From: Marinitoga litoralis
Lineage (GTDB): Bacteria; Thermotogota; Thermotogae; Petrotogales; Petrotogaceae
Assembly (NCBI RefSeq): GCF_016908145.1
Contig: NZ_JAFBDI010000006.1
Location: 1 to 64,000, forward strand
Length of the DNA: 64,000 nt
Direction: 5' to 3'
The translations under genes and the position numbers were made by a program. The notes under the pieces are model-generated. The model saw nothing but the letters and a program-made list of their open reading frames with translations. It had not been told where the DNA came from and did not search any database. Positions 45,891 to 60,199 of this stretch are shown here, one piece after another. How positions within the stretch are numbered: position 1 is the stretch's first letter; each line of letters opens with the position of its first letter.

Positions 45891-46580
45891 ATGAATGTAG
45901 GCATAATTGTTGCTGCAGGAAAAGGTGAAAGAACAAAATTAGCCTACCCTAAACAATTTTACCAGATTTTAGGTAAAAGTTTGTTAAGAATTGCATTAGA
46001 AAAATATGAATATTCAAAAATAGATAAAATAATTGTTGTAGCTAATAAGGATTTCATAAATGAAACAAAAGAAGAATGTTATGGAATTAACAAAGTATAT
46101 GATATAATAGAAGGTGGGGAATCAAGACAAGAATCTGTATTTAATGCTTTAAGATATATATATGATAATCTTGGATTAATAACAATAGTGTCTATCCATG
46201 ATGCAGCAAGGCCTTTTGTTTCTACAAAAAAAATAAATGAAGGAATAGAGGTAACAAAAAAATATGGTTCTGCAGTTTTAGCCTTGCCCGAAAAAAATTC
46301 GCTTTCACAAGTAAATGATAATGTAATTAATAAGATTTTAGATAGGAATGAAATATATATTCATCAAACTCCCCAAACTTTTGATTTCCAAAAATTATAT
46401 AAAGCATATACGAATTTCGAAAATGAATTAAAAAGCTTTACTGATGATGCAAGTATATATCATAAGGCGGGGAATTTTGTTAGAATTATTGAAGGTGAAG
46501 AATATAATATAAAAATAACTACTGAATTTGATTTAAAATTTGCAAATTGGTTGATTGAGGAAGGGAAAATAAATGTTTAA
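45891..46580 (+). CDS. ispD: 2-C-methyl-D-erythritol 4-phosphate cytidylyltransferase
   Basis: This 229-aa enzyme of the MEP isoprenoid pathway has the CTP-binding start VAAGKGERTKLAYPKQF, IHDAARPF and the C-terminal ITTEFDLKFANWL. It joins CTP and MEP to make CDP-ME. The usual Gly-x-Gly-x-R-Met stretch reads GKGERTKLAYPKQ, within family variation. It is the first gene of a nine-gene + run and overlaps nfo by 8 bases. Confidence 0.94.
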   Translation: MNVGIIVAAGKGERTKLAYPKQFYQILGKSLLRIALEKYEYSKIDKIIVVANKDFINETKEECYGINKVYDIIEGGESRQESVFNALRYIYDNLGLITIVSIHDAARPFVSTKKINEGIEVTKKYGSAVLALPEKNSLSQVNDNVINKILDRNEIYIHQTPQTFDFQKLYKAYTNFENELKSFTDDASIYHKAGNFVRIIEGEEYNIKITTEFDLKFANWLIEEGKINV

Positions 46581-47430
46581 AATTGGAGCGCATATGAGTA
46601 CATCTAAAGGATTTCATAAAGTACCATTAAATACTATAGCAATAGATGGAAATACCTTTCAGATTTTTTGCCATAGTCCTAGAACATGGAAAGTAAAAGA
46701 TCCAAAAGAAGAAGATGTTATTAAATTTAAAGAAAATATGAAAAAAAATAATATATCATTTAAAGATGTTTTAGTTCATTCAGGGTATTTAATAAATTTA
46801 GCAACACCAAATGATGAAAATTGGGAAAAATCAATAAATCTAATGATTGAAGAATTAAAGATAACTGCAAAATTGGGGATAAAATATTTTAATGTTCATC
46901 CAGGATCACATTTAGGTAAAGGAGATGAGTTTGGATATGACAGGATAGCAAAAGCTTTAGATATTATATTAGAAAAATTAAACAATTTAGATGTTGTTAT
47001 ATTACTAGAAAATGTGGCTAAAAAAGGTGGCAATATTGGTTGGAAAATTGAACAATTGGGTGAAATAATTAAAAGAAGTAATTTTCAGGAAAAATTAGGA
47101 ATAACATATGATACATGTCATGGTTTTGATTCATACTATGATATTAGGAATAAAAATGAAGTTAGAAGACTATTAGAAGAAATAGAAAAATATATAGGTT
47201 TAGAAAAATTTAAGATGATACATTTAAATGATTCAAAGTTTCCACTAGGTGCAGGAAAGGATAGGCATGAATTTATAGGGAAAGGGGAAATAGGTATAAA
47301 AGGATTTGAAACATTTTTTTCTTTTGAAGAAATAATTAAATTGCCTATGCATCTTGAAACACCTGGTGATGATTCAGAGCATGCGGAAGATATAAAGGTA
47401 GTTAAAAGTATTTTGGAAATAAAGGGGTGA
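46573..47430 (+). CDS. nfo: Endonuclease IV (AP endonuclease)
   Basis: This 285-aa zinc enzyme cuts DNA at abasic sites. Family motifs are visible: GAHMSTSKGF at the start, NVHPGSHLGKG, the DTCHGFDSYYDIR zinc loop and HLNDSKFPLGAGKDRHE. The start has GAGGAAGGG in front and lies within the end of ispD, so translation is coupled. Confidence 0.97.
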   Translation: MFKIGAHMSTSKGFHKVPLNTIAIDGNTFQIFCHSPRTWKVKDPKEEDVIKFKENMKKNNISFKDVLVHSGYLINLATPNDENWEKSINLMIEELKITAKLGIKYFNVHPGSHLGKGDEFGYDRIAKALDIILEKLNNLDVVILLENVAKKGGNIGWKIEQLGEIIKRSNFQEKLGITYDTCHGFDSYYDIRNKNEVRRLLEEIEKYIGLEKFKMIHLNDSKFPLGAGKDRHEFIGKGEIGIKGFETFFSFEEIIKLPMHLETPGDDSEHAEDIKVVKSILEIKG

Positions 47431-47434
47431 GAAA

Positions 47435-48418
47435 ATGACAGATAATTTTGAAATTTTTGACGTTCAAGAAGAAAAGCCAAAGAAAAGGAAAAATATTTTT
47501 AAACGTATTGTGTGGCTAGTTATTGTCTTATTAATTTTAGGATATTTTAGTACTAGTGTTTATCAAGTAGGTCCATCTGAAATGGGATTAGTGCTTACTT
47601 TTGGAAAATATACTTCTAGTACAGGACCTGGTATTCATTGGCATTTGCCATATCCATTTCAAAGTCATAGAATAGTTGATATTAAAACATTAAAAAAAGT
47701 AGAAATTGGATTTAGAACAGTAAATTACAGGGGAAAAATAGAGTATCAAACTGTTTCTGAAGAAGCATTAATGATAACAGGTGATGAAAATATAGTAAAT
47801 CTTGAAGCTGTTGTACAATACAGGATTTCAGATCCTGTTAAATTTGCTTTTAGAGTCTTAAATGGATTTGATATGGTTAAATTTGCAACAGAAAGTGTAT
47901 TAAGAGAAATGGTTGCTATTAACGTTATTGACTCTGTTTTAACTTCCGAAAGGGATAGAATAGCAATGGAAACAGCAGAAAAAGTCCAAAAAATTCTTAA
48001 TGAGTATGAATCTGGTATTAAAGTTGAAAATGTATATTTACAAGAAGTTTCTCCTCCAGAAGAAGTTGTAAAGGCATTTGATGATGTAAATAGCGCTAAA
48101 CAAGATAAAGAGAAGTTTATAAATGAAGCAAACAGATATTCAAATGATGTTATTCCAAAAGCTGAAGGTGAAGCTCAAAAAATATTAAGAGAAGCAGAAG
48201 CATACTCATATGAAAAAGTAGCACTTGCAACAGGAGAAGCTCAAAGATTTAAAGAGATGTTAGAAGAATATAGTAATGCAAAAGATATAACTAAGAAAAG
48301 AATTATTCTTGAAGCGATTCAAGATTTATTAGAAAATTCAAAACAAAAGATTATTGTTGATAGTTCAGATACCCTTAAACTATTAAACTTACCAGAAATT
48401 GGTGGTGATTTAAAATGA
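47435..48418 (+). CDS. hflK: HflK, FtsH protease modulator
   Basis: This 327-aa SPFH protein has one N-terminal helix (about 24-43), the stomatin-like core starting YQVGPSEMGLVLTFGKY and a helical region rich in Ala and Glu (EAQKILREAEAYSYEK). With HflC it forms a membrane cage around the FtsH protease. It overlaps hflC by four bases. Confidence 0.95.
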   Translation: MTDNFEIFDVQEEKPKKRKNIFKRIVWLVIVLLILGYFSTSVYQVGPSEMGLVLTFGKYTSSTGPGIHWHLPYPFQSHRIVDIKTLKKVEIGFRTVNYRGKIEYQTVSEEALMITGDENIVNLEAVVQYRISDPVKFAFRVLNGFDMVKFATESVLREMVAINVIDSVLTSERDRIAMETAEKVQKILNEYESGIKVENVYLQEVSPPEEVVKAFDDVNSAKQDKEKFINEANRYSNDVIPKAEGEAQKILREAEAYSYEKVALATGEAQRFKEMLEEYSNAKDITKKRIILEAIQDLLENSKQKIIVDSSDTLKLLNLPEIGGDLK

Positions 48419-49275
48419 AAAAACAAACAAGAATAATTATTTTTGGAATTTTAGTATTATTAATAGCTATATTCATATACACGTCATTGTTTATAGTTAA
48501 CCAAGAACAACAAGCCGTAGTATTAAGATTTGGGCAAATTAAGAAAGTTGTTACAGAACCTGGTATTAGTTTTAAAACACCTTTTATTGATAATGTGGTA
48601 AAATTTGAAAAAAGACTTATGTTATATGATATTGAACCAGAAAGAATAATTACAGCTGATAAAAAAACTATTATAGTAGATACATATACTATATGGAGAA
48701 TAAATGACCCTAAAACATTTATTGAGAGTATGAGATCAGTTGATTTGGCATTAACAAGAATAGATGATGTTGTATATTCAAATGTTAGGGATTTGGTTGC
48801 TAAATATAACTTTGAAGAAGTATTATCAAAGAAAAGAGAAGAAATTTTATCTGAAATCACAAAAAGAAGTGGAGAAAATTTAAAACAATTTGGTATAGAA
48901 ATTGTAGATGTAAGGGTAAAAAGAACGGATCTTCCACCAGATATCTCAAAGTCAGTATATAATAGAATGATGGCAGAAAGGTATTCTATAGCAGCCCAAA
49001 TAAGAGCTGAAGGGCAAAGAGAATCAGAAATAATTAAAGCAGAAGCTGATAAAAAAGTAAAAATAATAATTTCTGAAGCACAAAAAAATGCTGAAATTAT
49101 AAGAGGTACAGCTGATGCCAGTGTTATATCTATTTTTGCAGATGCGTTTGGTGCAGATCCAGAATTCTTTGAATTAAGAAGAATAGCAGATATATATAAA
49201 AATTCATTTAAAGATGGAATGTTAATACTATCTCCAGATTCACCAATATTAAAATTTTTATATGAGGAGAAATAA
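48415..49275 (+). CDS. hflC: HflC, FtsH protease modulator
   Basis: This 286-aa SPFH protein has an N-terminal helix (6-25), FIVNQEQQAVVLRFGQI, the conserved WRINDPKTFIESMR stretch and an Ala/Glu-rich helix (RAEGQRESEIIKAEADKK). It pairs with HflK from the gene just upstream. ftsH is not in the window. Confidence 0.95.
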   Translation: MKKQTRIIIFGILVLLIAIFIYTSLFIVNQEQQAVVLRFGQIKKVVTEPGISFKTPFIDNVVKFEKRLMLYDIEPERIITADKKTIIVDTYTIWRINDPKTFIESMRSVDLALTRIDDVVYSNVRDLVAKYNFEEVLSKKREEILSEITKRSGENLKQFGIEIVDVRVKRTDLPPDISKSVYNRMMAERYSIAAQIRAEGQRESEIIKAEADKKVKIIISEAQKNAEIIRGTADASVISIFADAFGADPEFFELRRIADIYKNSFKDGMLILSPDSPILKFLYEEK

Positions 49276-49281
49276 TATTAA

Positions 49282-51048
49282 ATGAAAAAAGTTATAATAT
49301 TGATACTTTTAACATTGTTATTATTAAATTCATGTTCTGACATTTCAAAAAAAGTTGATATAAATATCGAAGGTGACGTATTGTCACCTTCTTTTCCCAT
49401 AAAAATTGATGTGAATTTAGAAGATTATACTTTAAAATTTTATAATGAAGATAATAATGAGATTTCATTTAAAAAAGATAATAATAAGTATTTTTTAAAT
49501 TTGAAAGAAGGAAAAAATACTATTAAAGTGGAAGTAATTTCTCAAAATAAAGTTATAAAAGAAAAAAGTTTTTCTGTAATTTTTGATAATACCCCACCTG
49601 ATATATCTTTTTTAAATTATTATATTAGAGGTGGAGAGCTTAATATAACGGCTTCTTCTCAAGCTACAGATTTAGAAAAATTTATTTTAAAATCAGATAA
49701 TATGGCTTATGAATTTAATATTAATTTTTCAACGCCTATTGAAAAAAATAAGGGAATATTAAGATATGAATTGTATGCTAAAGACAAATATAATAATATA
49801 TCTCAACCCAAAATAATCGAGATTGATACAAATAAGGATGATTTTCCTCAAATATTGAATGAAAGTTTAGATATATCTTTGTATGGTAATACAAACATAA
49901 AAGTTTTAGATGATTGGACTCCTGTAAATGAGATTAAGGTAATTTTAAAAACCGAAAAAAATACATATTCTTTGATTAATATAGATGAAGTATTATTAGA
50001 AGATACAAAAGAAGGCACCTTAGTAGTTATTGATAATGGCGATAATGCAATAGAAAAGAAAGTAGATATCCAAGTAGAAAAAGATCTCCCATCAATTCCA
50101 ACTGGTAATCCAAGGTTAATCGACTTTTCTGTAGACACCTTTGGATGGAATTATGAAACTGATGCATTTTCATATATAGTTGAAACACCATATACATTTG
50201 GTTGGAGACAAGGTTTAGAAACAAAAGCGGCTTTTGCAAGAGTTACAGATTCTAATATAGCAATGATAAGAGAAAAAAGTCAATTTTCTACATTAAGTTT
50301 TCCATCTCATCCAACTATAAGATTTTCTGGGACATTTGTGCATTTAGTTAGAAATATTATTGAATCCTCCGAAGATAATCTATATTTACCACAAATAAAT
50401 TCAGAATTTTTAATTGGAGGTAAAACTGTTTTAGGAGAAAAAAGTGTTGTTATGGTAGAATCTGGAAGTGTATTGAAATTTGTATCTAATTCTCAATTAA
50501 TTATTAAAGGATTATTTTTTATAATGCCAGGTGCGGGGAAATCATTAATTAGTGGAAATGGTGAAATAATTGTAGATGGGGGTATATTAATAGCGTCAAA
50601 AACTATATTTGATAAAGTCAGGATAATTGGGAATAAAGCAAAATTAATCTATCTAGAAGATTCAGAGTTTTTAGAAGGTTCAGATATATTGTCTACAAAT
50701 GATTTTAGGATTTGTTTATATAATAATTTAGGTTATAATAGTAATTTGAATTTTTATAATTCTGAAGAAGTATATATTAAAGATAGTTCTTTTAAAGATG
50801 TATCTTTGTATAATATAAATAAATTAGAGGGTTTTAAATCAGTATTTAATAATTTAATTATTAATGGTTTAAGTAAGTTATTTTTGAGTAGTAGCAATGT
50901 AAGTAATATTACTCAAAATGATTTTTCTTGGTCAAAAATCATTAATTCTAAAATAAGGGAATTGAGCGTTTCAAATTATTCAAGAAGTGTTTTATATAAT
51001 AGTGATGTAGAGAATATACAATCAGAATCAGGTGTGGTGGTGAAATGA
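49282..51048 (+). CDS. Uncharacterised lipoprotein with Ig-like and beta-helix-like parts
   Basis: This 588-aa protein has a lipoprotein signal with lipobox LLNSC (Cys18). Residues 30-270 look like repeated beta-sandwich modules (TLKFYNEDNNEISF, KSFSVIFDNTPPDISFLNYY). Residues 390-580 look like a parallel beta-helix with short regular turns (MPGAGKSLISGNGEIIVDGG). No catalytic motif is seen. It sits between hflC and a methyltransferase and overlaps the latter by four bases. A surface or toga-associated role is inference. Confidence 0.7.
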   Translation: MKKVIILILLTLLLLNSCSDISKKVDINIEGDVLSPSFPIKIDVNLEDYTLKFYNEDNNEISFKKDNNKYFLNLKEGKNTIKVEVISQNKVIKEKSFSVIFDNTPPDISFLNYYIRGGELNITASSQATDLEKFILKSDNMAYEFNINFSTPIEKNKGILRYELYAKDKYNNISQPKIIEIDTNKDDFPQILNESLDISLYGNTNIKVLDDWTPVNEIKVILKTEKNTYSLINIDEVLLEDTKEGTLVVIDNGDNAIEKKVDIQVEKDLPSIPTGNPRLIDFSVDTFGWNYETDAFSYIVETPYTFGWRQGLETKAAFARVTDSNIAMIREKSQFSTLSFPSHPTIRFSGTFVHLVRNIIESSEDNLYLPQINSEFLIGGKTVLGEKSVVMVESGSVLKFVSNSQLIIKGLFFIMPGAGKSLISGNGEIIVDGGILIASKTIFDKVRIIGNKAKLIYLEDSEFLEGSDILSTNDFRICLYNNLGYNSNLNFYNSEEVYIKDSSFKDVSLYNINKLEGFKSVFNNLIINGLSKLFLSSSNVSNITQNDFSWSKIINSKIRELSVSNYSRSVLYNSDVENIQSESGVVVK

Positions 51049-51704
51049 AAGAATTAAAATTAGAATCACCAAATAGATTTCATTCGCCAACCCATGGAAC
51101 AACTTTTTTAATTGATATATGTAAATTAATGAAAAATGAAAAAAAAATACTTGAATTAGGCTCTGGCATTGGCAGTGTATCTTTAGCAATAGCAAAAAAA
51201 TATAAAAACGTAGAAATTATAGGAATAGAAATTCAAAAAGAGCCTTATGAATATTCATTAAAAAATGCAGAAATAAATGGATTAGATGTATCTTTTATTA
51301 ATGATGATGTTGTTAATATTTCTAAATATTTAGAAAGGGAGTCAATTGATTGTATTATTACTAATCCGCCACATTATTCTAGTAAATCTTTGATTAGTCC
51401 ATATGATGAAAGAAAAACAGCTAGAACATTTAATGAAAAAGATTTAGAAAAATTTTTTATCGCAGCAAATTATGCATTAAAAAATAAAAAAAGAATGATT
51501 TTTGTTTATCATCCTACATATTTTATAACTTTTTTAAAATTAGCTGAAAAATATAATTTTATCCTACAAGAAATGTATATAGCTTATGGAAAACAAAATA
51601 GTAATGCTCAATTAATAGGAGGAGTTTTAAGAAAAAATGGTGGTGAGAATTTAACAATTCATCCACCAGTATTTTTGAGAAGTAGTGGAAGTGAAGGAGG
51701 ATAA
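51045..51704 (+). CDS. TrmN6-like tRNA/DNA-type N6-adenine methyltransferase
   Basis: This 219-aa enzyme has the SAM loop LELGSGIGSVSLAIA and the N6-adenine motif IITNPPHYSS, the arrangement of tRNA1(Val) A37 methyltransferases (TrmN6/YfiC). Substrate by similarity is tRNA; other RNA methyl transfer is possible. The start overlaps the stop of the lipoprotein gene. Confidence 0.85.
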   Translation: MKELKLESPNRFHSPTHGTTFLIDICKLMKNEKKILELGSGIGSVSLAIAKKYKNVEIIGIEIQKEPYEYSLKNAEINGLDVSFINDDVVNISKYLERESIDCIITNPPHYSSKSLISPYDERKTARTFNEKDLEKFFIAANYALKNKKRMIFVYHPTYFITFLKLAEKYNFILQEMYIAYGKQNSNAQLIGGVLRKNGGENLTIHPPVFLRSSGSEGG

Positions 51705-51705
51705 T

Positions 51706-52302
51706 ATGTTAATAACTTTTGAAGGTATAGAAAGTTCTGGAAAATCAACATTATCAAAAAGATTAACCGAATATTTGAAATCAAATAATAATGATGTTAT
51801 ATGGAATAGGGAACCAGGTGGAACAGAATTAGGTGAAAAAATAAGAGAAATTTTATTAGGAGATTATAATATATGCAGTATTAGTGAAGCATTATTATTT
51901 GCAGCTAGTAGGGCTCAGCTGGTTGAAGAGTTAATAAAACCAAATATGAATAAAATAATAATTTTAGATAGATTTGTTGATTCATCGATAGTATATCAAG
52001 GGTATGCTAGAAATTTAGGTTGGAAAGAAGTGTATGAAATAAATAAACATGCTTTAAATGGAATAATGCCTGATCTAACAATTGTAGTAGATGTTACTGT
52101 TGATACTTCATTTAATAGAATGAAAAATAAAAATAGAGACAGAATTGAAAACGAAGGTAAAGAGTTTTTTGAAAAAACACGCGAGGGGTTTCTCAAATTA
52201 AAAGAATGGTTTCCTAGCAGAAATATTGAAATAATAAATGGAGAACTTACTTTAGATGAAGAATTTGAAATATTGTTGGATATAATTAGAAAATATATTT
52301 AA
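51706..52302 (+). CDS. tmk: Thymidylate kinase
   Basis: This 198-aa enzyme makes dTDP from dTMP. It has the P-loop FEGIESSGKST, NREPGGTELGEKIR, the DR motif LDRFVDSSIVYQGYARNLG (Phe where Tyr is common) and a lid region. The start at 51706 follows AAGGAGG; an in-frame start at 51685 would overlap the methyltransferase. Confidence 0.97.
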   Translation: MLITFEGIESSGKSTLSKRLTEYLKSNNNDVIWNREPGGTELGEKIREILLGDYNICSISEALLFAASRAQLVEELIKPNMNKIIILDRFVDSSIVYQGYARNLGWKEVYEINKHALNGIMPDLTIVVDVTVDTSFNRMKNKNRDRIENEGKEFFEKTREGFLKLKEWFPSRNIEIINGELTLDEEFEILLDIIRKYI

Positions 52303-52315
52303 AAGAGGGGATAAC

Positions 52316-52615
52316 ATGTTTTGGTTTAAAAAGAAAAAGAACAAAAAAAATCCATTCTATAATGAAGGTAATGCTTTAGTTATTTACTTTAAATGTGATA
52401 AATGTGGTGAAAAATTTAGAAGTTACCTTAGAAAAGGGTATGATTTCTCAAATGCATATAATGGAAGGGCTGTTTATATTATTAATAAGGAATATATAGG
52501 TTCTAAATGTCCAGAAAAAATTCAGTTAAATTCTGAATTTGATGGTTCATACAGATTATTGAACTTTGAATTAATAGGTGGGACAATCATAACAAAAGAG
52601 GAGTTTGAAGAATAG
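52316..52615 (+). CDS. Small conserved-type protein with CxxC motif
   Basis: This 99-aa protein is not assigned to a family. It opens with a Lys/Asn-rich tail, then CDKCGEKFRSYLRKGYDF and a lone later Cys (GSKCPEKIQL), which could bind a metal. The rest is strand-rich. Ribosome site GAGGGG. It lies between tmk and the clamp-like gene with 13 and 1 bases of spacing, so it belongs to the operon. Confidence 0.7.
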   Translation: MFWFKKKKNKKNPFYNEGNALVIYFKCDKCGEKFRSYLRKGYDFSNAYNGRAVYIINKEYIGSKCPEKIQLNSEFDGSYRLLNFELIGGTIITKEEFEE

Positions 52616-52616
52616 A

Positions 52617-53678
52617 ATGGAAGGATGGATTCCTACAAGAAGATTGTTGAAAATAACAGAGTTTGCTGATAAATTTTGTGGAAAAACCGAGCCAATACAT
52701 AGATATATTTATCTATATTTTGATAAAGTTTTAAGAGTTTCTATGACAGATGGATGTGCTATTGCAGACATGTTTTTTTCAAAAGAATTTTTTCCATTTA
52801 AACAAACATATAGAATTTCAATACAGCATTTAAAGGGATTATTAAAAGGATTAAAAGAAGAAAAACATCCATTTATTCGAATGTTAGCTTTAGATGAAGG
52901 ATTAAAAATAGATTTAGAAAATATGGCATTAAATATAGAATCAGAAGATAAAATAAAACCAGAATTTAAAATGGATAAAATTTTATTCAATAATCCAACG
53001 GTAAAATTACACCAAAAAGATTTTATTAATTCGTTGGATTTTTCTAGTATTTTAGCAATGGAAGGGGATATTATCAATATTGTTTCAGATAATAAGTATA
53101 TATGGAGTTACTATCATGATTTTAATATGAGTACATATAGTTTGATAGGAGAATCAAATACTAGATTTTCACGTGGTATTCCATATGTGACAATACGCCA
53201 TATAATAAAATCATTATCTTTGTTATCCGATGACGAAATCATGATATTTTTAGAAGAAAAGTCATTATTTTTAAAAGGTAAAGGATACAACATTAAAGTT
53301 TGTAATGTAATAAATCCTGTTGTAGAGACAATAAATATTCAAATTGAACATTTAGAAGAAAAAAAAGCAAATGTGAAAGATATAAAAAAAATTATGAATA
53401 AAGCTTATACAGCATTACCAGTTAATGCAAAAGTTTATATAGTTTTTGGCAAGGATTCATATATTTTAGCAAAAGATGGAAAAACTACATTAACTTGGAA
53501 AATAGATTTAGAATTTAAAAATCAATATTTAGTAGAGGTAAATCATAGAAAACTTAGATCAATTCTTTCTAGAATGGATGATGAAATATATATAAAAATG
53601 AACGAAAAGAAAATAGTATTTTCGAATAAAAACAAGTACTTAGAAATATATGTAAAAGAATTTAAAAATCATCAATAG
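52617..53678 (+). CDS. Putative sliding-clamp-fold (DnaN-like) protein
   Basis: This 353-aa protein has the length and three-part strand/helix pattern of the bacterial beta clamp (about 366 aa). Suggestive stretches are SMTDGCAIADMFFSK (like the clamp TDGxRLA segment) and a C-terminal module YLVEVNHRKLRSILSRMDDE then KYLEIYVKEF (like the third clamp domain). Similarity is weak and judged by eye; clamp hallmark peptides are not fully present, so it is probably not the main DnaN. The neighbouring tmk gives a DNA-precursor context. An in-frame TTG at 52605 is an alternative start. Its end overlaps the convergent HD-GYP gene by 17 bases. Confidence 0.5.
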   Translation: MEGWIPTRRLLKITEFADKFCGKTEPIHRYIYLYFDKVLRVSMTDGCAIADMFFSKEFFPFKQTYRISIQHLKGLLKGLKEEKHPFIRMLALDEGLKIDLENMALNIESEDKIKPEFKMDKILFNNPTVKLHQKDFINSLDFSSILAMEGDIINIVSDNKYIWSYYHDFNMSTYSLIGESNTRFSRGIPYVTIRHIIKSLSLLSDDEIMIFLEEKSLFLKGKGYNIKVCNVINPVVETINIQIEHLEEKKANVKDIKKIMNKAYTALPVNAKVYIVFGKDSYILAKDGKTTLTWKIDLEFKNQYLVEVNHRKLRSILSRMDDEIYIKMNEKKIVFSNKNKYLEIYVKEFKNHQ

Positions 53679-54729
53679 GTTGATAGTCTAATATTTTAAC
53701 TATTCTAATATTTTTTTCTTCATTTAAATCTATTATATCATTATTTACTTTAACAATAGGCTTCATTTTATTATTCCTATTAGTTCCAATAATGATCCCT
53801 TTAGAATTATCATTTAACATTACACACATACCTGGTGGAAATAATCCAAGTGAATTTATTAGATTTTGCGCAATATCTGGATCAAAATCTTTATTTACAT
53901 GAGATAACATATATGATATTGTTTTATAAGGTGTCCAAGGATCTTTATAACTTCTTTTACTTGTTAAAGCGTCGTATACATCACTTAAAGCAAGTATTCT
54001 ACCGTATAATGAAATATCCTTTCCTTTTTTCTTAAAAATATATCCAGTACCATCAAATCTTTCATGATGTTCTATAGAACCTTCTATAACTCTTTTATCA
54101 TTATAACCAGAATTTTCTAAAATTTCTTTAGTATATATTACATGATTTTTTACAAATTCAAATTCATCAGAAGATAATTTTCTTGGTGCATTTAATATTT
54201 CTAAAGGTATTTTAGTTTTTCCCACATCGTGTAAAATACCGCTTAAAGCAATTTCATATAGCTCATCATCTTTTACACCCATATCTAAAGCTATAAGGGC
54301 ACTTAATATCATTACATTTAATGAGTGAGAGAATAAATAGTCATCATAACTTTTTAATTTTTTTAATGGAACAAATATTTTATCTGAAAAGTTATTGCTC
54401 ATTTCATTTATGATTTCAGCAGTAACCTCTTCTACTTCTGACATATTTAATTCACCAGTGTTCATTAAAGTTTCAAATATTTTTTTAGTTTTTAAAAAAC
54501 TTTTTTCTAAAAGTTCTTTACTGATTGTAGTGTGAATATACGAATTTAATTTCTTCTCATTAGAAATGTTTTTAATTGGAATTTTAAAAATTCCATTATT
54601 TTTTATTATTTTAATTTTTTGCTCATCTAAAATAGTTCCTTTTTCATACAATATTTTTCCATTAAAACTCCTAATATCCATATCTAATATCATATTCGGC
54701 TTTACTTTGTCTATTGATATGAATTTCAT
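53662..54729 (-). CDS. HD-GYP domain protein 1 (c-di-GMP phosphodiesterase)
   Basis: This 355-aa protein has an N-terminal module (1-60, VKPNMILDMDI), the HD-GYP domain with His135, His167-Asp168 (HDVGKT), His196, His221-His222 (HHERFDGTGY) and Asp226, and a small C-terminal beta domain (295-355). All metal ligands and the HDxGK Lys are present; GYP reads GYI. It should hydrolyse c-di-GMP. It lies 9 bases after its paralog. Confidence 0.92.
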   Translation of the reverse strand: MKFISIDKVKPNMILDMDIRSFNGKILYEKGTILDEQKIKIIKNNGIFKIPIKNISNEKKLNSYIHTTISKELLEKSFLKTKKIFETLMNTGELNMSEVEEVTAEIINEMSNNFSDKIFVPLKKLKSYDDYLFSHSLNVMILSALIALDMGVKDDELYEIALSGILHDVGKTKIPLEILNAPRKLSSDEFEFVKNHVIYTKEILENSGYNDKRVIEGSIEHHERFDGTGYIFKKKGKDISLYGRILALSDVYDALTSKRSYKDPWTPYKTISYMLSHVNKDFDPDIAQNLINSLGLFPPGMCVMLNDNSKGIIIGTNRNNKMKPIVKVNNDIIDLNEEKNIRIVKILDYQPIDDF

Positions 54730-54738
54730 ATAAATCCC

Positions 54739-55809
54739 TCACTCAATGTAAATATAATCTAAAACTTTTACAATTCTTATTTTTTTTTCTTTACTTAAAT
54801 CTAAAACATCGCCATGATCGATTTTTATAATTGGTCTTATTTTATTTGATCTATTAGATGCAATAACTGTTCCAAATTGACCATTATTTAATTGAACTCT
54901 AGTTCCTGCAGGATAAATACCGAAAGCATTAATAATACCTTGAGCATATTCACCATCAAATTGTTTTCCTACATTAGTTAAAATAAATGATATTGTTTTA
55001 TAAGGAGACCAAGGTCCTTTATAACTTCTAACACTTGTCAAAGCATCATATACATCCGCAATAGAAACAATTTTTCCGAATTTAGTTATTTCATCTCCTT
55101 TTTTCTTTTCTAGATAACCATTTCCATCTACCCTTTCATGGTGTTCATATATTCCACCTATAATATTTTTATCTTTTATATTACTATTAATAGCAATTTT
55201 TTTTCCATATAACACATGATTTCTTACAGCATTTAATTCTTCCTCGTTTAATGCTCTTGGAGCATTTAATATTTCAATAGGAACCATTGTTTTTCCAATA
55301 TCATGCAATAACGAAGATATTGATATATCTAAAAGCTCATCTCCTATAATTTTATTTTCAACAGCTAATAACGAACTTATTATCATTACATTTAAAGAAT
55401 GAGCATATAAATATTCATCAAAACTTTTTAGCTTTTTTAAAGGAACAAATAATATATCAGAGTAATTATTTTCAATTTCATTTTTAATTGATGAAGCTAT
55501 ATCAATAACAGCATCTATATCAATTTTATTATTATCTTCTAAATGTTTAAATAAGTCTTTTATTTTATTATAATTTAAATCAATAATCTCTTTGCTTATT
55601 ACAGAATGTTTATGAGCTTCTTGAGAAATTTTTGGAGTTACTTTCAATGAATTAACAGGTATATTAAATATCCCTAGTTTTTTTAAATTAGATATTATTT
55701 CTTCATTAATTTCAGTATTTTTTTTATATATAACATTACCAGCAGTATCTCTAACATCCATTGCTAAAATCATGCCATATTTAGCTTTATTAAGTGGTAT
55801 AATTTTCAT
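54739..55809 (-). CDS. HD-GYP domain protein 2 (c-di-GMP phosphodiesterase)
   Basis: This 356-aa paralog of the next gene has the same three-part layout: N-terminal module (NKAKYGMILAMDV), HD-GYP ligands His137, His169-Asp170 (HDIGKT), His198, His223-His224 (HHERVDGNGY) and Asp228, and the C-terminal beta domain. It looks catalytically intact with GYL for GYP. Its start overlaps the stop of the upstream paralog (ATGA). Confidence 0.92.
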   Translation of the reverse strand: MKIIPLNKAKYGMILAMDVRDTAGNVIYKKNTEINEEIISNLKKLGIFNIPVNSLKVTPKISQEAHKHSVISKEIIDLNYNKIKDLFKHLEDNNKIDIDAVIDIASSIKNEIENNYSDILFVPLKKLKSFDEYLYAHSLNVMIISSLLAVENKIIGDELLDISISSLLHDIGKTMVPIEILNAPRALNEEELNAVRNHVLYGKKIAINSNIKDKNIIGGIYEHHERVDGNGYLEKKKGDEITKFGKIVSIADVYDALTSVRSYKGPWSPYKTISFILTNVGKQFDGEYAQGIINAFGIYPAGTRVQLNNGQFGTVIASNRSNKIRPIIKIDHGDVLDLSKEKKIRIVKVLDYIYIE

Positions 55810-56813
55810 TCTATCGCTTCCTTAATATATATATTTGTATCAGGTCCAGTTTTTATAATATTTCCATTAACAAAAACATCTGGGAAAAATTCTATATCAT
55901 TTCTTCTAATTACAGTTCCAATATTACCATCACTTAATTTTACAGTTGTTCCTGTAGGATAATACCCTGTTATTTCATATAACATTCCTACATAATATGG
56001 ATCAAAAATAAATCCGCATCTTTTTAGTATCCATGACAACGCTTGATAAGGAGTATAGCCTAATTCAATTAATGAAGTATAAGCATCTGCAACTTGTGTT
56101 ATTCTAACTAAGGGAGATATTTTTTCACCTTTTAAATGGAATTTACCCTTTCCATCATATCTTTCGTGATGATATAGAATGCTATCCAAAATTTCGTGGT
56201 TTAGTGTTGATTTTAACTTTTGCAGTTTTTTATAAGCTACGACATTATGTATTAAAGCAATTTTATCATCACTATCAAAATCGTTTATTATTCTATCATT
56301 TATCATAGCATATCCTATATCATGTATCAATGCAAATTTAACTGTTTGTATATACATTATATATGGGGTATCAATTTTTTTAGCTATGATTGAAACAAGA
56401 ATAGCAGTATTTAATGAATGATATAATAAACTATCATTTCCAAATGAATTCATAAAATTTAATATAAAATATTTAGAAATATTTAAATTTTTGTATATTT
56501 CTTCAGAAATATTATTTAAATTAATGAAAAATTCTTCTTTTGAAAAATGAGAAAAGAGGCCTTCTAAACTTTCTTTCCATTTAAAATAAAGTTTTTCATC
56601 AATAATAAGATCAAAATCTTGGAAATTTTTTTTAAGAAAACTAGAAGTTTCGCTAATGGAAACTTCTAGTTCTACAATATTAGACTTTTTGAGAAGCTCT
56701 ATAGATTCCTCATCAAGAACTTCCCCTTTTTTAAAGTTTAACCTATTTTTTAAATTATATATATCTTCCTGAATAATCATTCCAGGTTTTAGATTAGTAA
56801 CTTTAACTTTCAA
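55806..56813 (-). CDS. HD-GYP domain protein 3, degenerate
   Basis: This 335-aa paralog keeps His132, His164-Asp165, His189, His215-His216 and Asp220, but the HDxGK lysine is Tyr168 (HDIGYAM) and the GYP stretch is lost (DGKGKFHLKG). It may bind c-di-GMP or have changed activity. I place the start at TTG 56813: it sits behind GGGGATGG and gives MKVKVTNLKPGM, aligning with the other two paralogs. ATG 56822 would overlap the ribosome site; the frame also stays open upstream into the M16 gene. Confidence 0.8.
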   Translation of the reverse strand: MKVKVTNLKPGMIIQEDIYNLKNRLNFKKGEVLDEESIELLKKSNIVELEVSISETSSFLKKNFQDFDLIIDEKLYFKWKESLEGLFSHFSKEEFFINLNNISEEIYKNLNISKYFILNFMNSFGNDSLLYHSLNTAILVSIIAKKIDTPYIMYIQTVKFALIHDIGYAMINDRIINDFDSDDKIALIHNVVAYKKLQKLKSTLNHEILDSILYHHERYDGKGKFHLKGEKISPLVRITQVADAYTSLIELGYTPYQALSWILKRCGFIFDPYYVGMLYEITGYYPTGTTVKLSDGNIGTVIRRNDIEFFPDVFVNGNIIKTGPDTNIYIKEAIE

Positions 56814-56829
56814 AAAAACCATCCCCGTT

Positions 56830-58050
56830 TTATTTTGGTTTAACAATAGATATATATGGCTCAGAAGTAAATATTTTCTTAGAAGTTTCAATAATTTTTT
56901 CATTACTTTGAGCATTAATTGTTTTTACCATTTCATCAATATTAATCAATTTATCAAATGCCAAATAATAATCCAATGCTAAGAATCCAAAATTTAACCC
57001 ATTTTCTGTTTCAAGCATATATCTTCCAGATAATCTTTTTCTTCCATAATCTATCCATTGATCAATATTATCAATGGCAAAAATATTTTGAATCAAATTG
57101 GATAAGGAATAAGTTAGTTTATCAAAATTTTCAGGTACAGTAGCAGCAAAAATTGTAAATGTTCCGTTTTCATTATATGCTGAGTAATCAGCAGAAATCT
57201 CATAAGCTAAGCCAAGTTCTTCTCTAATTTTAGTAAATAATAATGAACTCATTCCGCTTCCTAAAAATGTTTTTAAAATAGCAGCAGGATAAAAATCATC
57301 CGACATTTTAGATGGTGCTTTAAAAGAGTATACTACATATACTTGAGATAATTCTTCTTTTTCTTTTTCGACTTTTTCTATTTTTTTATTGAATTCAGGA
57401 CTTTTAAAATCGCATTTTTTTCCTAATCTTTGAGGTATTAGATTCTCTATATTTTCCAATAAACCTTCTAATTCTTTTTCAGGACCAACTAATGTTAGAA
57501 CAATGTTATTTGTATTATATTTTTCTTCATAATATTTTTTTATATCCAAATTAGATATCTTTGAAACACTTTCTTTGGTACCCAAAACTGGATAAGAAAA
57601 TTCATTTAAAAACATAACTTTATTTAATTGTTCAAATGCATTGTCTATAGGTTCATCTTCATACATAGCAATTTCATCTAATACAATTTTCTTTTCTTTT
57701 TCTATTTCTTTTTCATCAAATTTAGCATTAAATAAAATATCAAGAATGATTTCTAAAGCCACTTTTGAAGCGGTTAATGGAACTTTAGCATAATATGCAG
57801 TAATATTTTTTCCAGTAAATGCATTTAACGACCCACCAAATTCTTCGATGGGTCTTTTTATTTCTTCCATGTCTCTATTCAATGTTCCTCTAAATACTGA
57901 ATGTTCAATTAAATGTGAAATCCCCATTATTTCTTTAGGTTCATGAGCTGAGCCTGCTCTAACTGCAGCGATAATGGAGACACTTCTTACATTATTTCTT
58001 GGAATAATTAGTATATCAATTCCATTATTTAGTGTCTTCTTTTTTATCAT
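56830..58050 (-). CDS. M16 family (insulinase-like) zinc peptidase
   Basis: This 406-aa peptidase has the inverted zinc motif HLIEH (His-x-x-Glu-His, in [15 protein letters not shown]) and the distal Glu in [15 protein letters not shown], as in processing-peptidase-like bacterial proteins. It starts inside the end of pnp, with CGGAGG in front, a pairing seen in many bacteria. It is likely cytoplasmic (no signal). Confidence 0.94.
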
Positions 58051-60199
58051 CTTTTTCCTCCGTTTTTGTATTTCGTGAGTTTCTTCTAGGCTTTTTATTT
58101 TCTGTTTTTACTCCGAATTTTTTTAATTGAATTTTACCATTATCATCTATACTTAATATTTCCACTTTTATTATATCGCCTAAATTAATATTTTTTAAAA
58201 TATCTTTTGCATCACTTCCTAAGTTTGACATATGAAGCAGTCCAACTTTTCCTGGAGCTATTTCAACAAAAATACCATAGTTTTCAATTCTAGATACTTT
58301 TCCATCAAATACTTCCCCTTGTTTAATTTCTTTAATTAAACTTTGTATGTATGCAATAGCATTATCAATATCTTCTATGTTATAACCACTAACTTTTGTT
58401 AATCCTGTTTCATCATCAATTGAAACTTGAACATTAAAATCTTTATGAATTCCTTTTATAATTCTTCCGCCAGGACCAATAACTTCAGCGATTTTTTCAA
58501 TAGGTACAACTGTTGTTTTTATTAAAGGTGCATATGGAGATAATTCTTTTTTAGGTTCTGGAATAGTATTATACATAATATCTAAAATGTGTAATCTAGC
58601 TATTCTAGCTCTTTCTAAAGCTTCTTTTAATACCTCTTCATTAACTCCAGCAACTTTTACATCCATTTGGAATGCAGTAATACCATCTCTTGTTCCGGTA
58701 ACTTTAAAGTCCATATCACCTAAATGATCTTCCATTCCTAATATATCTGTTAAAACAACAAATTTATCTTCTTCAAAAATTAAACCCATAGCTACTCCAG
58801 CAACATGTTTTTTCATAGGCACTCCAGCATCCATTAAAGCTAAAGAACCTGAACAAACAGTTGCCATTGAAGATGAACCATTTGATTCTAATACTTCAGA
58901 AACAACACGAATAATATATGGGAATTCCTCTTCAGATGGAATTAAGTTCTTTAATGCCCTTTCAGCCAAATGACCGTGCCCGATTTCTCTTCTACTTAAT
59001 CTTAACCCTTTAACTTCTCCAGTTGAAAATGGTGGGAAGTTATAATGTAACATAAATCTTCTTTCGCCTTCTTCGAATACAGTATCGATTATTTGTACGT
59101 CCATAGGTTCGCCTAAAGTAACAATACCTAAACTTTGTGTTTCTCCTCTAGTGAATAAAGCAGAACCATGTGTTTTTTCAAATAATCCAGTTTCACATGT
59201 TATAGGCCTAATTTCATCGATTTTTCTTCCATCTGCTCTAGTGTTTTCTTCTATAATCATTTTTCTCATTAATTTTTTTATTCTTTCATCAAAAGTTTCT
59301 AAAATGAAATTTTTATACTTATCAAAAGTTTCATTATCCCATTTTTCAACAAAATCTGTTTGGAATTTTTCTAATAGTTCTTTTCTATAGGAATCAATAG
59401 CATCGTCTCTATCTTTTTTACCTTTAACTAAAATTCTTCTTTTTAATTCATTATCATCAATTAATGAAGCAAAATCCTCTAAAAATTCTTCAGGATATTC
59501 TGGAGGAGTTACTTCCCATTTTTCAATATTAAAGTCTGCAACAACGCTTTCTTGGAATTCAATTACTTTTTTGATTGCGTCATGAGCAAATAATAACGCT
59601 TTAACCATTTCATCTTCAGATACTTCTAAAGATTCACCTTCTACCATTGTTATTGCTTCTTTAGTACCAGCAACAACAATATCCATTTTACTATTTTTTA
59701 ATTCCTCTTGTGTAGGGAATACAATAAACTCTCCGTTTACATATCCCAACCTTACTCCAGCTACCATACCATCAAATGGTATAGGAGATAAGTTGAGAGC
59801 AAAAGAAGCTCCAGTTATTCCCCAAGTTTCAATACTGTCATCATTATCCATAGATAACGCTGTTACAATAACTTGTATATCATTATGAAAATCTTTAGGG
59901 AATAATGGTCTTATAGGTCTATCAATTAATCTGGAAGAAAGAATAGCTTCGCTACTTGGCCTTCCTTCTCTTTTTAAAAATCCGCCAGGGATTTTTCCAA
60001 CTGCATAAAATTTTTCTTGGAATTCAACAGTCAAAGGTAAAAAATCAACACCTTCTTTCGCCTCTTTAGAAGCTGTTGCAGTTACTAAAATAGCAGATTT
60101 ACCATATTTTAATAGCACAGAACCATGTGCTTGTTTTGCCATTTTGCCATGTTCAATGACTAGTTTTCTACCAAAAATTTCTGTTTCCCATACCTTCAT
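58025..60199 (-). CDS. pnp: Polynucleotide phosphorylase
   Basis: This 724-aa 3'-to-5' exoribonuclease has two RNase PH domains (about 5-230 and 310-540), the catalytic segment [19 protein letters not shown], a KH domain ([10 protein letters not shown]) and an S1 domain ([20 protein letters not shown]), ending in a Lys/Glu tail. It degrades mRNA phosphorolytically. It heads a minus-strand operon that continues into the M16 peptidase and three HD-GYP genes. Confidence 0.98.

Follow-up and report, generated by a model that had tools for sequence, protein, structure and literature searches.

The DNA analysed here (the window) is a stretch of 64,000 nucleotides from Marinitoga litoralis (contig NZ_JAFBDI010000006.1, positions 1 to 64,000). 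It carries a gene, here called clamp2, for which an initial annotation made from the sequence had proposed a possible second, divergent sliding clamp beside tmk. The gene, its parts and its upstream neighbours are listed in Table 1. No significant Pfam family was found for the 99-aa ORF, and an Rfam scan of positions 46000-60000 gave no match. Directly downstream, on the opposite strand (53662-56915), is a row of three related ORFs, each 355-369 aa long, which are convergent with clamp2 and share 17 bp with its end. The ORF nearest to clamp2 contains an HD_5/HD domain and is HD-GYP-like, the members of the trio cluster together, and the trio adjoins clamp2 in 5/5 Marinitoga neighbourhoods viewed.

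Table 1. Position of clamp2, its parts and its upstream neighbours in the window
Feature	Position	Strand	Remarks
clamp2, divergent DnaN-fold paralogue	52617..53678	+	ATG at 52617, 353 aa plus stop
clamp2 domain 1, residues 1-122	52617..52982	+	boundary approximate; best match DnaN domain 1, E 1.2e-8
clamp2 domain 2, residues 123-245	52983..53351	+	boundary approximate; best match DnaN domain 2, E 1.9e-4, prob 47%
clamp2 domain 3, residues 246-353	53352..53675	+	DnaN domain 3, E 1.3e-8; AlphaFold2 and Foldseek/VIA, Z 11.7
TDGC motif, residues 44-47, domain 1	52746..52757	+	D45 54/56, G46 55/56, C47 51/56
EGD loop, residues 149-151	53061..53069	+	replaces longer DnaN domain 2 loop
R194-H195-x-x-K198, second inner helix, domain 2	53196..53210	+	invariant 56/56
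HRKLRSILSR, residues 310-319, second inner helix, domain 3	53544..53573	+	R319 55/56
99-aa ORF, Cys-containing	52316..52615	+	stop 1 bp before clamp2; among viewed neighbourhoods, Marinitoga only
tmk, thymidylate kinase	51685..52302	+	Pfam 3.4e-46; gene order tmk, 99-aa ORF, clamp2

When searched as a single sequence, the window protein gave no match to a DnaN family (Pfam, E<=10; NCBIfam, E<=1), and phmmer against the PDB gave nothing at E<=10. An alignment of clamp2 relatives (A1) was compared with one of canonical clamps. A1 contained 56 sequences from the 57 genomes with matches, the Marinitoga lauensis copy (G002) being omitted since it has stops in frame; the control alignment (A2) contained 21 of 31 canonical Thermotogota dnaN loci, picked by length and redundancy, or 22 sequences with that of E. 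coli. The A1 profile (hmmsearch, 177,635 PDB sequences) gave 11 matches at E<=10, all of them beta clamps, headed by 3t0p (4e-6) and including the T. maritima DnaN 1vpk (7.4e-5). By hhalign, A1 matched the 21 Thermotogota DnaNs with E 3.6e-14 over 345 columns, and the same set plus E. coli with E 5.9e-15 over 343 columns, the three domains being collinear. The controls failed: E was 0.15 with the profile reversed, and the lowest value among 30 column shuffles was 0.069. Each third of clamp2 matched its cognate DnaN domain best, the match of domain 2 being the weakest, so that the three-part pattern noticed in the initial annotation is borne out.

Few members of A1 can be recognized singly. Weak matches to Pfam DnaN families were found in at most 4/56, and five of the 56 matched TIGR00663 dnaN of NCBIfam (best 2.7e-5); by the curated cut-offs of Pfam and NCBIfam clamp2 does not qualify as a canonical DnaN. 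Identity to canonical DnaN in the profile alignment was about 10%, in agreement with the earlier remark that the sequence is far from the canonical clamp. Clamp2 nevertheless has the three consecutive processivity-fold domains of the DnaN superfamily, each homologous to its DnaN counterpart, with the fold modelled for domain 3 only. It is almost certainly a full-length three-domain DnaN homologue. The TDGCAIADMF stretch cited earlier as DnaN-like is present, with TDGC at residues 44-47, but it aligns with the 'TDL' motif of DnaN domain 1 and not with the 'TDGHR' of domain 2 that it resembles. Domain 1 of clamp2 was also seen to match DnaN domain 2 (E 1.4e-6), and its TDGC is akin to the TDGH of that domain; a relocated pocket, lying between domains 1 and 2, is conceivable.

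The structure of the window protein was predicted with AlphaFold2. The single-sequence model had a mean pLDDT of 38.7, with a block at residues ~247-345 of pLDDT ~57-79; addition of the M. lauensis pieces (four rows) raised the mean to 40.6, domains 1-2 remaining below 50. Foldseek and VIA-align were run on the single-sequence model, which is confident for domain 3 only. Foldseek against the PDB returned 49 matches at E<=1e-3, all clamps or clamp-containing complexes by title, and VIA-align, restricted to residues ~243-349, superimposed the model on domain 3 of E. coli beta with an rmsd of 2.5 over 105 residues. The C-terminal strand module of the initial annotation is thus supported by the model as a match to DnaN domain 3, and fold search led to the clamp fold and not to an unrelated one. 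Together with the full-length profile alignment, the PDB profile matches and the failure of the shuffles, this upholds the proposal of a divergent second clamp-fold protein.

The class-level search found relatives in 57/61 genomes, including 47/48 of good quality, and in 24/26 genera. Across Thermotogota, 100/103 genomes matched A1, and clamp2 was counted in 98/103 after dropping the weak matches (about 2e-4) of G048, where the match is the gene listed as dnaN, and G090, whose 366-aa frame was taken as dnaN. Clamp2 was missing from both genomes of genus g18 (G042, G048), both of g34 (G089, G090) and G072, and these five gave no convincing match to a profile built from 12 divergent members (A3). 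A match in G089 at 7.5e-4 was rejected since it sits in an unrelated ORF. The absence from G072 may be an assembly gap, as its congeners carry clamp2. The gene is single copy in each genome except for a fragmented copy in M. lauensis, which was also the sole match in a single-protein scan of genome contigs, a method that reaches close relatives only. Clamp2 extends over two or more frames in G068 (L115 3953-5498) and in M. lauensis (L032/L008), through sequencing error or real decay. Three very divergent, shorter clamp2s of 323-329 aa (L108, L109 and L110, from G091, G102 and G100) have Arg for the His of RHxxK; beside them is a pcm-like gene and, close by, an ftsY-like one (both labelled from sequence).

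In many genomes canonical DnaN appeared as a second match of the A1 profile; because it scores far more weakly, the two proteins can be told apart. The main dnaN was located elsewhere in the window genome (G000, 2.29 Mb), which has one canonical copy at G000:C22:7895-8350, on a contig other than that of clamp2. Canonical dnaN was present in 59/61 class relatives, indicating that clamp2 is not their sole dnaN. A likeness to phage proteins was seen in 20/56 members of A1, which matched PHROG 947, 'DNA polymerase processivity factor' (best 1.9e-7), but the window protein was not among them. In addition, tblastn of clamp2 against phages and plasmids revealed no relative at E<=1, and none of 5 pattern matches in viral contigs was a relative; a viral or plasmid origin was therefore rejected. 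The single-copy distribution through the phylum, and the loss of the peptide pocket described below, go beyond what the initial annotation had claimed.

The surroundings of clamp2 were compared in 52 neighbourhoods (51 loci and the window; G002, G005, G008, G018 and G019, which also have matches, were left out). In 27/52 of them polC, identified from its sequence and from PF07733 match positions, lies directly upstream of clamp2 on the same strand. These comprise 11/11 non-Marinitoga neighbourhoods of family f1 and 16/16 of f2, and the gap between the two genes is -11 to +11 bp in all 27 non-Marinitoga Petrotogales neighbourhoods examined; coordinates also put polC just upstream of clamp2 in G008, G018 and G019. 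The pairing is lacking in 25/52, including this window and all five Marinitoga neighbourhoods examined. Since the gene downstream of clamp2 varies by lineage, with at least five kinds among the 52, the polC pairing is not mere overall synteny. Elsewhere in the phylum the genes upstream of clamp2 include ddl-like, alaS, tsaD and GTPase genes and the ispG side (labels from sequence, not family search); in G093 it lies between alaS-like and Hsp33-like genes, also labelled from sequence.

The position beside tmk is true in the window but is not conserved: of the 52 neighbourhoods, just two, the window and G006, have the tmk gene cluster. Marinitoga itself is not uniform, for L060 and L061 have the 99-aa ORF and a ClpB-like gene upstream of clamp2, and L063 has neither. 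As the upstream genes vary both in Marinitoga and in the phylum, tmk was rejected as a functional partner and the adjacency is incidental. The suggestion that the protein could serve a special polymerase gains circumstantial support from the 27 polC pairings; a repair enzyme was the other client named in the initial annotation.

The PolC C-termini inspected have QxxLF, or a motif near to it (QITLI, QITLM, QIQMF), at their end, and a regular expression for Q..[LIM][FLMI] found no such motif in the one DnaE sequence of the window genome. The passages of PMC3919608 on these polymerases give QLSLF as near-universal in PolC and assign Thermotogae a PolC and a DnaE3, the latter the most divergent of its group and lacking recognisable OB and C-terminal domains. 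In the g18 genomes (completeness 90% and 71%) PolC is present and clamp2 was not detected. G042 and G048 also had a DnaE that scored higher to PF07733, at 342 and 335 bits, than that of any other genome searched; a link between DnaE type and the presence of clamp2 is possible, judged from these two incomplete genomes. A second, stop-containing DnaN-like stretch was observed in an f1 genome (G009:C1:1818024-1818317 and G009:C1:1830672-1831247); some 12 kb away is a third match to C-family polymerases, in a 979-aa frame. Several relatives have a comparable third polymerase, with frame lengths of ~900-1025 aa, and the stretch with its polymerase is perhaps a mobile replication module.

Comparison with the G006 copy, which is 81% identical, gave a dN/dS of 0.116, showing purifying selection on clamp2. 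It is also faster-evolving than DnaN: over 171 pairs from 19 genomes mean identity was 0.30 for clamp2 and 0.46 for DnaN, which was higher in 171/171.

The residues of clamp2 were mapped onto E. coli DnaN by profile alignment, with the 22 DnaNs as reference. Like canonical DnaN (E. coli beta; T. maritima TM0262, PDB 1vpk), clamp2 has a three-domain order, a similar length and basic inner helices, which in the mapping line the DNA channel as in the DnaN superfamily. Within limits that we take to be those of E. coli beta, the six inner helices of clamp2 carry a mean net charge of +10.0, positive in 56/56, compared with +3.8 in DnaN; when the inner-helix column set was shifted circularly, 0/352 shifts reached +10.0. 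The whole protein is basic (+6.5), unlike the acidic DnaN (-16.0). Near-invariant residues specific to clamp2 and not shared with DnaN are G22, E25, D45-G46-C47 of the TDGC motif, C229 and above all R194-H195-K198 and R319. The last two map to domains 2 and 3, in each case on the second inner helix; the motif R and K were found in 12/12 of the A3 members and its H in 9/12.

The docking surface differs from that of canonical DnaN. D173, R176, P242, M362, P363 and R365, which we take to be the canonical peptide-pocket residues, are invariant in 22/22 DnaNs and not conserved in the 56 clamp2s; the best-kept position is P363, with Pro in 22/56. The canonical peptide-binding pocket (TDGHR motif, P242, C-terminal MPxRL) is consequently lacking, and the loop preceding L155 is reduced to E149-G150-D151. 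Of the positions presumed to form the E. coli beta dimer interface, R103, R105, I272, E298, E300 and E304 are not kept, and F106 is replaced by Leu in 50/56. The mapping thus indicates that the DNA channel of clamp2 is kept and strengthened, the docking pocket is lost and the interface is remodelled. Because the presumed interface residues are mostly lost, closure of a ring is uncertain.

The general view, to our knowledge, is that a single clamp serves every purpose in a bacterium, its partners sharing one kind of pocket. Second dnaN copies are already known. According to PMC3290774, Bacillus anthracis DnaN-2 has about 40% similarity to DnaN-1 and an inferred role in replication. It resembles clamp2 in being encoded by a second dnaN besides the canonical one; clamp2 is far more divergent from DnaN (19-28% in pairwise comparison), is phylum-wide and has lost the pocket. 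Binding of B. subtilis PolC and DnaE to DnaN is treated in PMC12309361. The relevant passages of PMC12926913 and PMC3814617 mention Thermotogae and not a second clamp. A literature search, with most subscription papers and bioRxiv preprints outside its scope, found no description of a second Thermotogota clamp. The T. maritima clamp2 is presumably TM1395; papers containing 'TM1395' concern, by title and abstract, other organisms. Clamp2 appears to be undescribed within the literature searched, which is not proof.

Since the channel seems strengthened, the pocket lost and the interface remodelled, we propose that clamp2 is an ancient beta-clamp paralogue, fixed in Thermotogota beside canonical DnaN, that would act as a specialised DNA-encircling ring with the PolC replisome. 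Taken as a whole, this explanation has in our judgement about an even chance of being right. That clamp2 acts as a ring encircling DNA is probable; dedication to PolC, suggested by gene order, is a more tentative matter, for which we put the prospects a little short of even. Clamp2 would form its own two-subunit ring, or half of a ring, round duplex DNA by way of remodelled interfaces. Partners bearing QxxLF would dock on canonical DnaN, and clamp2 would not be a general hub. As a second ring reserved for the PolC replisome, it may travel with that replisome or follow it, touching PolC or DNA with surfaces outside the canonical pocket, and might increase the grip of PolC or mark the duplex behind it. 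Evidence against this proposal is that the polC pairing is limited to one order. The two g18 genomes that have PolC and no detected clamp2 also count against it, as do the loss of most presumed interface residues and the weak match of domain 2. Moreover, PolC keeps a QxxLF-like motif and DnaN an intact pocket, so that on motif evidence PolC needs no second clamp.

The same residues could be read in other ways. By analogy with heteromeric archaeal PCNA, clamp2 and DnaN might share a ring having one peptide pocket instead of two, which would limit simultaneous docking. A pocket lost in one protein and kept in the other, the occurrence of both genes almost throughout the phylum and the conservative change of F106 to Leu agree with such a ring. 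Loss of the other presumed interface residues means, on the other hand, that new contacts would be needed for DnaN to dock, and the net charges of the two proteins differ strongly; we consider a mixed ring unlikely. Clamp2 might also be a clamp-fold DNA binder that does not slide as a ring, such as a basic, partly open sleeve or single-chain factor stabilising fork DNA in thermophiles, or a regulator of PolC. The basic character of the whole protein, which DnaN does not share, the loss of pocket and presumed interface residues, and the placing of several of the most conserved residues on the inner helices are compatible with this. The three clamp domains are nevertheless kept, in order, indicating a retained architecture, and such a binder seems improbable to us.

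Clamp2 might instead serve a partner other than PolC, such as DnaE, lagging-strand processing or repair, and its adjacency to polC might reflect no more than joint regulation of replication genes. This would suit the DnaE of the window genome, in whose one sequence the Q..[LIM][FLMI] motif is lacking, the reported divergence and missing domains of Thermotogae DnaE3 (PMC3919608, in the passages cited above), and the higher-scoring DnaE of the g18 genomes without detectable clamp2. Those genomes are only two and incomplete, and the polC pairing is left unexplained; this alternative is very unlikely. A decaying or non-functional duplicate might be suspected from the faster evolution and from the broken frames of G002 and G068, but it is already contradicted by the low dN/dS, the presence in 98/103 genomes and the invariant residues, and can hardly be right. 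We retain the specialised PolC-replisome ring as the best explanation.

Single-sequence family searches missed clamp2, although it is conserved throughout a phylum of thermophiles to which the much-studied T. maritima belongs. If the proposed ring is real, clamps can specialise through loss of the pocket with the DNA channel retained, and the division of labour in two-polymerase (PolC and DnaE) replisomes becomes testable. Clamp2 is also a candidate thermostable processivity factor for in vitro use. In a wider reading, which we advance with rather more doubt than belief, Thermotogota would replicate with two clamps: DnaN would be the hub for docking, and a strongly basic ring without a pocket would be dedicated to the PolC replisome, binding its polymerase in a new mode. 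If that is true, the division of labour between clamps would be phylum-wide and ancestral to Thermotogota.
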